From Methanolobus psychrotolerans (lineage in GTDB: Archaea; Halobacteriota; Methanosarcinia; Methanosarcinales; Methanosarcinaceae), in assembly GCF_002243045.1 (NCBI RefSeq), contig NZ_MBKP01000007.1, positions 1-64,000 of the forward strand: DNA of 64,000 nt, in the 5' to 3' direction. This document shows, in pieces, positions 2,393-5,686 of this stretch (its first letter is position 1; every line of letters starts with the position of its first letter). The notes beneath the pieces are model-generated. The model was not told where the DNA came from, did no database searches, and was given only the letters and a program-made list of their open reading frames with translations. A program made the position numbers and the translations under genes.

Positions 2393-3352
2393 TTGGTGAT
2401 GATATACTTGGTTTCGACTTCAGGCTCTAAAATACGAAATCCTTATCTTGAACTGTTAAGGCCGGAAATTGCAGATATGGATTTTGCTCTCCCCGCCGCA
2501 AGTGCTTTGCTGGCATCCTATCTTGCAACAGGGCTATTGCCGGACCCATTACTCTTTATAATAGCTGTTATCGGGGGTTATGCAGCCATTACAAGCTCTT
2601 ATGTTTACAACGATTGCTGTGATATTGACATAGACCTGATCAATCTCCCAAACCGTCCACTGGTATCCAATAAACTAAGCCGAGGGCAGGCTATGAAATA
2701 TGCAGGGTTGTTGTTCCTTATAGCCAGTGCAGCAGCCCTTTACCTGAATCCGGAGTCTTTCTTAGTGCTGGTGATAGCAGTCATTACTATTAGTGTATAC
2801 TCAAAACTTGCAAAAAGACTGACATTTCTTAGTTTTGTACCTGTGGGAATTGCTTACGGACTTGTGCCTATAGGTATCTGGCTGGCATTTGATCCTGCCG
2901 GAATCCTCAAAGGTCCGGATTATGGTTCTATGCTTCCTCTTTCTGCCATATTCCTTGGTTTGATGATGTGTTTCACAGACTGGGGTTTTACCCTCTCTGG
3001 TGTTGCCAGGGATGTGGAAGGCGACAGGGCCAGGGGGGCACCGACATTCCCTGTGACATTTGGCATACCTTCAACATCAAAATTCGTTTCATTCATGTGG
3101 GTTGTAGGTGTAATAGCTTCGGTAGCCATCGGACTTACAGCACAGTTAGGTCCTATCTACTTTGCAGGTGCACTGCTAGCAGGTGTGTGGATGCTCACAC
3201 AGTCATTTGATTTCATAAAAAACCCTACAGAGCAGCGTGGCGGAAAATTGTTCCTTCAGGGATCCAGATATAGGGGTATCATGTTTGGTTCTCTTATACT
3301 TGATGTAATACTTTGCATACTTGTTCCGGCATATTCCGGTATATTATGGTAA
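2393..3352 (+). CDS. UbiA-family prenyltransferase
   Basis: Integral membrane aromatic/polyol prenyltransferase. The two metal-diphosphate motifs of the family are both present: N73-D74-x2-D77-x3-D81 and a DVEGD motif in the second half. About eight or nine hydrophobic segments can be seen over 319 residues, the usual size. It starts at TTG 2393, ten bases after AGGAG; ATG 2399 is the alternative. It opens an operon with a geranylgeranyl reductase-family flavoprotein (27-base gap) and a radical SAM protein (3-base gap). Archaeal UbiA proteins include digeranylgeranylglyceryl phosphate synthase (membrane lipid) and putative quinone or methanophenazine prenyltransferases. Sequence alone does not tell me which this is; the neighbours favour a reduced prenylated small molecule. 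Confidence 0.88.
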   Translation: MVMIYLVSTSGSKIRNPYLELLRPEIADMDFALPAASALLASYLATGLLPDPLLFIIAVIGGYAAITSSYVYNDCCDIDIDLINLPNRPLVSNKLSRGQAMKYAGLLFLIASAAALYLNPESFLVLVIAVITISVYSKLAKRLTFLSFVPVGIAYGLVPIGIWLAFDPAGILKGPDYGSMLPLSAIFLGLMMCFTDWGFTLSGVARDVEGDRARGAPTFPVTFGIPSTSKFVSFMWVVGVIASVAIGLTAQLGPIYFAGALLAGVWMLTQSFDFIKNPTEQRGGKLFLQGSRYRGIMFGSLILDVILCILVPAYSGILW

Positions 3353-3379
3353 GAATTGTGGTAAAAGACGAGGTTCAAA

Positions 3380-4537
3380 ATGGATGCAGATATCATTGTA
3401 ATAGGGGCTTCCCCTGCAGGGGTCATGGCAGCAAGGAACGCATCAGCTAAAGGCTGCAAAGTGATCCTGCTTGATAAAAAGGAAGCGGCAGGTGTACCAA
3501 CTCACCCGGCAAATACTTTTTTCAAAGGGATGTTTGACCGGACAGGTGAAGAGGTAGACCAGAGTTATGTCATCAAGAACCTCAAAGGTGCCTATATCAT
3601 AGCACCCTCCGGCAGGAACGTCATCTTTGAAGGGGATGCTTATTTCCTTGACAGGAAAAAATTTGATGAATTTTACATTCGCCAGGCTGAAGAAGCAGGT
3701 GCAGACATCCGCTTTGGAATTGAAGTTCACAATGTTCTCAGGGCTGAAGGAGGCTTTATAGTAAGCACTTCCAGGGGTAAGATAAGGTGCAGGCTTGTTA
3801 TCGTTTCAGATGGCATCAATTCCCGGATTGCTGCCCTTCTGGGTATGAAACCTATAAAATATCCTAAGGACATTGCCTGGTCCCTTGAAGCGGAGATTGA
3901 AGCTGATGGTATTGGTGAGCCTGATATGTTTGAATATTATGTAGGCAACCATGCACCTGGGTGGAAATCAACTTATTCTCCATGTGGCAGGAATCGGGCA
4001 ACTCTTGGTATGTATGTCCGCGGACACGGCAAGGATGTTTCTGACTTCTTTGATGGGTGGCTTGGAAATTTTAAGGCCCTGAAAGGACTCGATGAAGTAA
4101 AGATAATAAGCAAATCCGTAGGTGGCGATCCGATTGTGGCAATACCTGGTGAGCTGGTTGCTGATGGTATCATGATAACCGGTGGCTCTGCTGCCCAGTC
4201 AGGTATCGGATATGGCATGCATGCAGGACAGATGTGCGGTGATGTTGCAGCCGATGCCATTGCAAAGGGTGATATGTCAAAGAATTTCCTTAATGAATAT
4301 AGGAGACGCTGGAATTCTGCATATCGGACTGAGTATTATCTGGGAAGGTTTGCCCTTGAAACTCTCAGGAAAATGACCGATAAAGAGATAGATGAGCTTA
4401 TGAAAGTCTTTGAAGGTGAGGACCTGAAAGTTCTTGGTGGCAGTCCTTTTAACCAGGCATTACAGATATCAAAGATGATACTGAAAAATAATCCCTCTTC
4501 TATACTTTCGTACAGGGCTGTTTTCAGGGCGAAGTGA
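3380..4537 (+). CDS. geranylgeranyl reductase-family FAD protein
   Basis: Flavin-dependent reductase that saturates prenyl double bonds. The N-terminus has a Rossmann FAD site with the variant IGASPAGVMAARNA at about 8-21, and a second FAD motif, IVSDGINSRIA, near residue 145. A glycine-rich ITGGSAAQSGIGYGMHAGQ segment around 270-290 is typical of the GGR family. Length (385) is close to the usual 390-400. ATG at 3380 follows GAGGT by five bases. It sits between a UbiA prenyltransferase and a radical SAM gene, so its substrate is probably the prenyl chain that UbiA attaches or its precursor; the general lipid GGR of this organism may be encoded elsewhere. Confidence 0.9.
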   Translation: MDADIIVIGASPAGVMAARNASAKGCKVILLDKKEAAGVPTHPANTFFKGMFDRTGEEVDQSYVIKNLKGAYIIAPSGRNVIFEGDAYFLDRKKFDEFYIRQAEEAGADIRFGIEVHNVLRAEGGFIVSTSRGKIRCRLVIVSDGINSRIAALLGMKPIKYPKDIAWSLEAEIEADGIGEPDMFEYYVGNHAPGWKSTYSPCGRNRATLGMYVRGHGKDVSDFFDGWLGNFKALKGLDEVKIISKSVGGDPIVAIPGELVADGIMITGGSAAQSGIGYGMHAGQMCGDVAADAIAKGDMSKNFLNEYRRRWNSAYRTEYYLGRFALETLRKMTDKEIDELMKVFEGEDLKVLGGSPFNQALQISKMILKNNPSSILSYRAVFRAK

Positions 4538-4540
4538 ACC

Positions 4541-5686
4541 ATGAAGAATAAGTATTACTTCTACAAAAATCCATTTTTCAAGGTGTATGCCCGGATAGAG
4601 AATAACCGGGTGAAAATGGAGACCTCTGGTATTGCATCTTCAATTATGGGTTCTTTTGTTTCGGATATGATGGCGATATTCGAAGATACAAAACCATGTA
4701 AGGTGGAACCGGGGCAATTGATATATTCCATCTGGATGCCCCCGATACCCAGTAAGGCGTTCGACAGGCTTGTATCAAGCCAGATGAGTGCAATGAGGGG
4801 CAAGTACGTCCCGGAACAGATCACCATCTCGATTACGGAAGAGTGCCCAAACAGATGCCTGCACTGTGCTCTTCCAGATACGAAAAATAAAGCGAGGCTC
4901 AGTTCTGATGTTGTGAGAAGCATCATTGACCAGACTCTGGATTTAGGTACTACTCTCATCATATTCGATGGTGGGGAGCCTTTGTTGTATGATGGTCTTG
5001 AAGATTTAATCAGTTATGTTGATAAATCCAGAGCAATTGCTGGTCTTTTTACATCCGGTGTGGGCATGACTCCTCAACGCGCATCACGTATGAAGGATGC
5101 AGGTCTTTCAATGCTAAGTGTAAGCTTTGACAGTTCAAATGAAGTAGGGCACGACTTCATGCGTGGGAGATCTGGAGTGTTCAACGACGCGGTAAATGCA
5201 ATAAAGAATGGTCTGAATGCAGGTCTTCTGGTTGGCATCTATGTTGTCCTGTCTCCCAGAAACATCGATGAACTTGATGATTTCTATGAACTTGCAACAA
5301 AACTGGGTGTGCATGAACTTTCATTCTATGAGATAGTTCCTACCGGAAGGTGGCAGGGCCATGAGAAGGAAATCCTCTCAGCCGAAGATCTTAAAAAATT
5401 TGATGATTTTGTAGAGCGCACGTCTCATGCAGAAGGTCCACGTGTTTTCCCAATCCCTCAGATCATAAGGAAAATGGGCTGTTTTGCCGGCAGAAAATGG
5501 CTTCATGTCACTCCTGAAGGTGATGTCCTGCCATGTGCATGCATGCCAAAACCATATGGCAACATTCATAATGAAGCCCTGGCTACAATATGGAAAAAAA
5601 TATACAAAGACCCGGTTTTCAACTCCGGCCCATGTCTTATGAGGGATTCGGAGTTCCGAAAAGTCCATCTTGGACTTGAAAAATAG
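4541..5686 (+). CDS. radical SAM protein with SPASM/Twitch-like C-terminus
   Basis: C102-x3-C106-x2-C109 binds the SAM-cleaving 4Fe-4S cluster, and GGEPLL near 146 is the SAM-binding GGE motif. The C-terminal part has further cysteines (CFAGRKW near 309, CACMP near 330, then CLMRD), the pattern of an auxiliary-cluster SPASM or Twitch domain. The first 90 residues before the barrel are unusual and lack a motif I know. The gene begins three bases after the reductase stop, so it is probably co-translated. Families with this layout modify peptides, tRNA or small molecules. Here the partners suggest chemistry on a prenylated compound, but the reaction is unknown. Confidence 0.85.
   Translation: MKNKYYFYKNPFFKVYARIENNRVKMETSGIASSIMGSFVSDMMAIFEDTKPCKVEPGQLIYSIWMPPIPSKAFDRLVSSQMSAMRGKYVPEQITISITEECPNRCLHCALPDTKNKARLSSDVVRSIIDQTLDLGTTLIIFDGGEPLLYDGLEDLISYVDKSRAIAGLFTSGVGMTPQRASRMKDAGLSMLSVSFDSSNEVGHDFMRGRSGVFNDAVNAIKNGLNAGLLVGIYVVLSPRNIDELDDFYELATKLGVHELSFYEIVPTGRWQGHEKEILSAEDLKKFDDFVERTSHAEGPRVFPIPQIIRKMGCFAGRKWLHVTPEGDVLPCACMPKPYGNIHNEALATIWKKIYKDPVFNSGPCLMRDSEFRKVHLGLEK

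Follow-up and report, generated by a model that had tools for sequence, protein, structure and literature searches.

Methanophenazine, a phenazine ether of a C25 chain with one double bond reduced, is the membrane electron carrier that takes the place of quinones in the respiration of cytochrome-containing methanogens and probably also of the ANME-2 (anaerobic methanotrophic archaea) lineages. A comparable anaerobic redox lipid, menaquinone, is made through the futalosine pathway, which combines radical SAM enzymes with a UbiA prenyltransferase. A prenyl reductase specific for menaquinone is known from Archaeoglobus, according to a title cited in PMC4683180, and synthesis of the C25 diphosphate was demonstrated for MM_0789 of Methanosarcina mazei (Ogawa et al. 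2010, as cited in PMC3017947). The biosynthesis of methanophenazine has been stated as undeciphered (PMC6315138, PMC8546582), its route was still named a hidden pathway in 2024 (PMC11477647), and genomes could not be mined for its synthesis (PMC4683180); the first-pass annotation of the DNA studied here had likewise described its assembly as incompletely known. Here we analyse an operon of three genes, UbiA1, a prenyl reductase gene and RSAM1, which occupies positions 2,393 to 5,686 of a 64,000-nucleotide window from Methanolobus psychrotolerans (NCBI RefSeq assembly GCF_002243045.1, contig NZ_MBKP01000007.1, positions 1 to 64,000, forward strand). We consider it probable, at about 0.77, that the products of this operon act late in methanophenazine biosynthesis; its place in the pathway is well supported, and we infer the individual reactions. 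No published account of the operon was found in the literature searched, which left preprints and most subscription papers outside its scope.

Organization and conservation of the operon

The three genes lie head-to-tail on the plus strand with intergenic gaps of 27 and 3 bp. UbiA1 (2,393–3,352) encodes a UbiA-family prenyltransferase (PF01040) proposed to couple the head group with the C25 chain, the second gene (3,380–4,537) a divergent flavoprotein of the geranylgeranyl reductase (GGR) type that would saturate one side-chain double bond, and RSAM1 (4,541–5,686) a radical SAM/SPASM (Twitch-like) protein (PF04055 and PF13186) for which head-group chemistry is proposed. A terminator-like hairpin on the plus strand (2,263–2,289), with a 12-bp stem and a T-rich tail (z = -2.5), separates the operon from tgtA, and a convergent DUF7121 gene has its 3' end 83 bp past RSAM1. 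This agrees with the first-pass annotation in the coordinates of the three reading frames, in both gaps and in the terminator placed before the block. The contiguous order UbiA-GGR-RSAM1 was found in 56 of the 80 named loci returned by the reductase search, and all ten Methanosarcinaceae loci from other genomes, plus one further locus, show the same order. Since this order recurs across the loci of other genomes, it is not attributable to chance.

Distribution among archaeal genomes

The phylogenetic profile of 393 genomes of one phylum identified RSAM1 in 91 genomes and UbiA1 in 89, all of which also carry RSAM1; neither gene occurs in the remaining genomes, about 300 in number. The reductase was present in 99 genomes, ten of them with weakly similar copies of the type found in the cousin clusters described below. 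The positive genomes belong to f1, the Methanosarcinaceae (65 genomes, including Methanimicrococcus), f6, the Methanothrix type (20 genomes), and f2, which is ANME-2 and includes HR1, and an order-level search added f3 (ANME-2) and one genus of f5; families were matched to taxa by contig identity or kinship, a matching that is not always direct. In the genome-reduced Methanimicrococcus, Vht and HdrDE are reported to be all that is left for energy conservation (PMC11362671).

The profile of MqnE, a menaquinone enzyme, covered 160 genomes of the class and revealed 17 above the cut-off, namely all 16 genomes tested of the f5 genera g13 and g17 and one of f4; two additional f4 genomes also have MqnE. 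No RSAM1, UbiA1 or reductase was found in these MqnE genomes where tested. The genera g13 and g17 appear to be Methanoperedens-like, and for a Methanoperedens enrichment it was reported that high-performance liquid chromatography gave no methanophenazine and that the genome lacked Vht and contained menaquinone genes (PMC4683180). In M. psychrotolerans itself, the best match to MqnE (TIGR03700) scored 329 bits and did not reach the cut-off of 434.55. The exception is G186 (f20), in which MqnE and RSAM1 occur together. The 8.4-kb contig concerned shares 99% identity with one from G055, a genome of another family (f3; loci L062 and L083), so that the RSAM1 contig of G186 is probably mis-binned; we discounted this match because of that identity and because the genome carries MqnE. 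Overall, the block tracks the methanophenazine lineages and avoids their menaquinone relatives, rather than occurring equally in methanogens that lack methanophenazine, the outcome that the first-pass annotation had considered damaging to its own proposal.

Links to genes of methanophenazine metabolism

Genome G094, which belongs to f5 and to a genus separate from the MqnE genera, retains UbiA1-GGR-RSAM1; it gave no match to MqnE, a weak absence in a genome that is 67% complete. About 75 bp beyond its operon follow genes for a hydrogenase small subunit, a large subunit, a membrane protein and a maturation protease. The membrane protein occupies the position of cytochrome b in the layout of Vht/Vho, the methanophenazine-reducing hydrogenase, and by layout and gene family this hydrogenase operon is of the vht type.

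We also detected a link through RSAM2, a paralogue of RSAM1 whose gene immediately follows one for a prenyl diphosphate synthase, between ATP synthase and heme genes (L058, 7,791–9,876). The best model for this synthase is that of the methanogen geranylfarnesyl diphosphate synthase (NF040627, 333.6 bits, under the strict cut-off of 600), and the synthase-RSAM2 pair is kept in f1, f6 and G094. The same neighbourhood, heme genes and ATP synthase, has been described for the orthologue of MM_0789, to which synthesis of the C25 chain of methanophenazine is assigned (PMC3017947). These two links, one with the geranylfarnesyl diphosphate synthase and one with the vht-type hydrogenase, strengthen the assignment of the UbiA, reductase and radical SAM genes to methanophenazine.

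UbiA1 and the reductase are distinct from the lipid enzymes

UbiA1 scores 145.5 bits against PF01040 (gathering score 34.2) and is thus a member of the UbiA superfamily. Its translation probably starts at the ATG at 2,399 and not at the TTG at 2,393, because homologues often begin with MIYLV. Both aspartate motifs are intact, NDCCDIDID (2,609–2,635, plus strand) and DVEGD, and the positions of NDxxDxxxD and DxxxD are invariant in 20 orthologues, including N73, D74, D77 and D81 of the first motif. The closest solved fold is the digeranylgeranylglyceryl phosphate (DGGGP) synthase of M. jannaschii, an ether-forming enzyme, and this agrees with an ether as the product. Against the model for DGGGP synthase, NF009521, UbiA1 reaches 86.7 bits and stays below the equivalog cut-off of 296, whereas another UbiA gene of the same genome (L001) scores 374 bits. 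The tree places UbiA1 and this DGGGP synthase in separate clades, each with a support of 100/99, and the long branches leave their deeper placement unsure. UbiA1 is therefore neither within the DGGGP synthase clade nor the sole copy of the genome, the combination that, according to the first-pass annotation, would have refuted its proposal.

The reductase is of the FAD oxidoreductase/lycopene-cyclase type in Pfam and carries the subfamily signature PGWKxTxSPxG. Its nearest NCBIfam model is TIGR02032, with 116.5 bits against a subfamily cut-off of 158.8, and its closest solved chain is 3oz2, a digeranylgeranylglycerophospholipid (DGGGPL) reductase; by sequence it is a distant homologue of geranylgeranyl reductase, GGR-like only. 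The copy most similar to the DGGGPL reductase model in this genome is a paralogue (L008). Altogether, the genome contains five UbiA genes and five strong or moderate matches to geranylgeranyl reductase. Because a DGGGP synthase and reductase copies exist separately, the genome has its lipid genes besides the UbiA1-reductase-RSAM1 block.

RSAM1 belongs to a distinct radical SAM family

RSAM1 matches Radical_SAM (PF04055) with 72.7 bits and SPASM (PF13186) with 32.9 bits, and its cluster motif CPNRCLHC (4,844–4,867, plus strand) has the form CxxxCxxC, with three cysteines invariant in 42 family members, which upholds the reading of the third gene as a SPASM/Twitch radical SAM enzyme. It did not exceed the cut-off of any named NCBIfam equivalog (PqqE, NirJ, AhbC/D, MftC, MoaA; best score 125 against 500 bits), and the top scores below threshold were those of the NirJ2 and AhbD models. 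The predicted structure is confident (pLDDT, predicted local distance difference test, 91), as is a second model (pLDDT 84). The core folds nearest to RSAM1 are SkfB, BlsE and PqqE, and tetraether synthase structures rank far lower.

Two paralogues in the same genome, RSAM2 and RSAM3, show 42% and 40% identity to RSAM1. The three share a N-terminus of about 85–90 residues with a conserved PPxP motif, and this region of about 85 residues appears to be specific to the family. The auxiliary [4Fe-4S] cluster region (5,480–5,635, plus strand) comprises C314, C332, C334 and C365, of which 314, 332 and 365 are invariant. Position 334 is Cys in 13 of 13 RSAM1 proteins and Tyr in all RSAM2 and RSAM3/a proteins, and every b and c protein has His there; because the residue is specific to the subfamily, the ligation of the auxiliary cluster may differ between subfamilies. 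In the family tree, whose root is uncertain, RSAM3 groups with the first SPASM enzyme of the cousin clusters (100/99), RSAM1 and RSAM2 lie on a common branch (94/92), and the other two SPASM enzymes of the cousin clusters lie on another (100/100). At the RSAM3 locus (L059, 8,246–10,234), inspection by eye revealed a preceding RecA/KaiC-type ATPase-like gene on the same strand.

Cousin clusters and the PTO1314-type radical SAM gene

The reductase search of the named genomes also returned Methanocellales-type metagenome-assembled genomes (MAGs) and Methanonatronarchaeia, a class of methanogens that are believed to possess cytochromes. In these cousin clusters the reductase is accompanied by two or three SPASM enzymes, and UbiA and an NMT1-like gene are found in the same or in a second locus. 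In the Methanocellales-type clusters a single locus contains the reductase, UbiA and the NMT1/THI5-like gene together with four radical SAM genes, three of them related SPASM genes and one of the PTO1314 type (L120 1,445–9,000, L121, L122 and L136–L144), and look like a remodelled redox-lipid pathway. The Methanonatronarchaeia have the same gene set divided over two loci (L145, L146, L245 and L246). The NMT1-like gene is limited to the cousin type. One full cousin cluster, L141, comes from a MAG labelled Bathyarchaeota, for which transfer, mislabelling and mis-binning are all possible.

Leaving G094 aside, nine methanophenazine-type genomes were tested, and all nine had orthologues of the PTO1314-type gene, at 43–62% identity; the two MqnE genomes tested had none. 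In Methanosarcinaceae the gene shows no obvious linkage; by eye, it lies near a thiC-like gene in Methanolobus and Methanimicrococcus (L236, 8,540–12,467; L244, 5,642–8,502).

Proposed pathway and alternative explanations

In the pathway that we propose, a geranylfarnesyl diphosphate synthase encoded elsewhere, assigned here by family and context, would supply the C25 diphosphate. UbiA1 would move this chain to the hydroxyl of a hydroxyphenazine or of a precursor, giving the ether, and the reductase would saturate the double bond adjoining it. RSAM1, together with RSAM2, RSAM3 and the PTO1314-type enzyme, would carry out the oxygen-free building or tailoring of the aromatic head, and the product would be the membrane electron carrier for Fpo, Vht and HdrDE. 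The suggestion of the first-pass annotation that the operon attaches, reduces and decorates methanophenazine gains support from the co-distribution, the separate lipid copies and the gene links. More tentatively, the route could be oxygen-independent and independent of bacterial Phz, with the three SPASM paralogues and the PTO1314-type enzyme assembling or hydroxylating the head, a dedicated UbiA and GGR, and a remodelled version in Methanonatronarchaeia and Methanocellales-type archaea. A shortlist of about seven genes would make the pathway directly testable in the genetically tractable Methanosarcina, and would also provide a marker by which methanophenazine could be recognised in the genomes of uncultured archaea.

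Several observations weigh against this assignment, the case for which consists wholly of genomic inference. The co-distribution mostly tracks one clade, the class Methanosarcinia minus the Methanoperedens-like genomes and f4, and because one class dominates the signal there are few independent evolutionary contrasts, the main ones being G094 and the cousin clusters. In addition, ANME-2 and Methanothrix genomes hold the three genes apart, and the UbiA of the cousin clusters is not orthologous to UbiA1 and has lost or never had the canonical Asp motifs. Met33H-type MAGs carry the variant cluster as well; they are probable relatives of Met12, which was reported to be without Fpo, HdrDE and VhtC (PMC11176372).

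Since the gene families demand only some prenylated molecule, and since some lineages with the Methanocellales-type variant are not proven users of methanophenazine, the block might make another prenylated redox cofactor or lipid, as yet undescribed, that by coincidence is restricted to the same archaea, and other genes would then make methanophenazine. We regard this as unlikely, given that the radical SAM family shows linkage with both the geranylfarnesyl diphosphate synthase and a hydrogenase operon of the vht type, that menaquinone genes and the block exclude each other, and that the block is retained in the genome-reduced Methanimicrococcus. A product among the ether lipids (archaeol, hydroxyarchaeol or another modified diether), with the ether formed by UbiA, saturation by GGR and modification by the radical SAM enzyme, is less likely again. 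In its favour, lipid enzymes are the closest relatives of UbiA1 and the reductase among solved structures, and radical SAM enzymes modify archaeal lipids (PMC9385802). Against it, another gene passes the DGGGP synthase cut-off and another paralogue is nearest to the DGGGPL reductase model, about 300 genomes of the phylum are without RSAM1 and UbiA1 although archaea generally make such lipids, and RSAM1 is of the SkfB/BlsE/PqqE type, far from the tetraether synthases. A lipid-only role was thus rejected as the main explanation in view of the separate lipid copies in the genome.

It seems very improbable that RSAM1 is a maturase of ribosomally synthesized and post-translationally modified peptides (RiPPs) or a heme enzyme, brought into one operon with lipid genes by accident. 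Its SPASM domain, RiPP maturases among the nearest folds and the sub-threshold NirJ2 and AhbD scores would agree with such a role, but a precursor gene would find no space in the gaps of 27 and 3 bp or in the 83 bp before the convergent neighbour, the heme-type radical SAM genes are sited elsewhere in the genome, and three paralogues with the specific N-terminal region recur beside prenyl enzymes. The RiPP reading was rejected on account of the missing precursor space and of this recurrence.

Comparison with known systems

Among the known systems closest to the operon is the futalosine menaquinone pathway (MqnA-E and the UbiA-type MqnP), which also yields an anaerobic redox lipid with radical SAM enzymes and a UbiA prenyltransferase. 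It differs in that the radical SAM enzymes of the operon are of the SPASM type, MqnE stays below its cut-off in the M. psychrotolerans genome, and MqnE genomes and block genomes are mutually exclusive, bar the one likely mis-binned contig. The archaeal diether pathway (DGGGP synthase and GGR) shares with the operon UbiA-type ether formation, prenyl saturation and the nearest structures, whereas UbiA1, with 87 bits, falls short of the cut-off of 296, the reductase likewise stays under that of its subfamily, and the lipid copies are separate. PqqE, BlsE, SkfB and NirJ/AhbD resemble RSAM1 in the radical SAM core and the auxiliary-cluster region, but the RSAM1 family has its own PPxP N-terminus of about 90 residues and a residue 334 that varies by subfamily, and RSAM1 reaches no equivalog cut-off. 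Finally, MM_0789 of M. mazei is the one enzyme assigned to methanophenazine, and its orthologue lies directly before RSAM2; MM_0789 makes the chain only, whereas the operon is proposed to provide the attachment, the reduction and the head-group steps.

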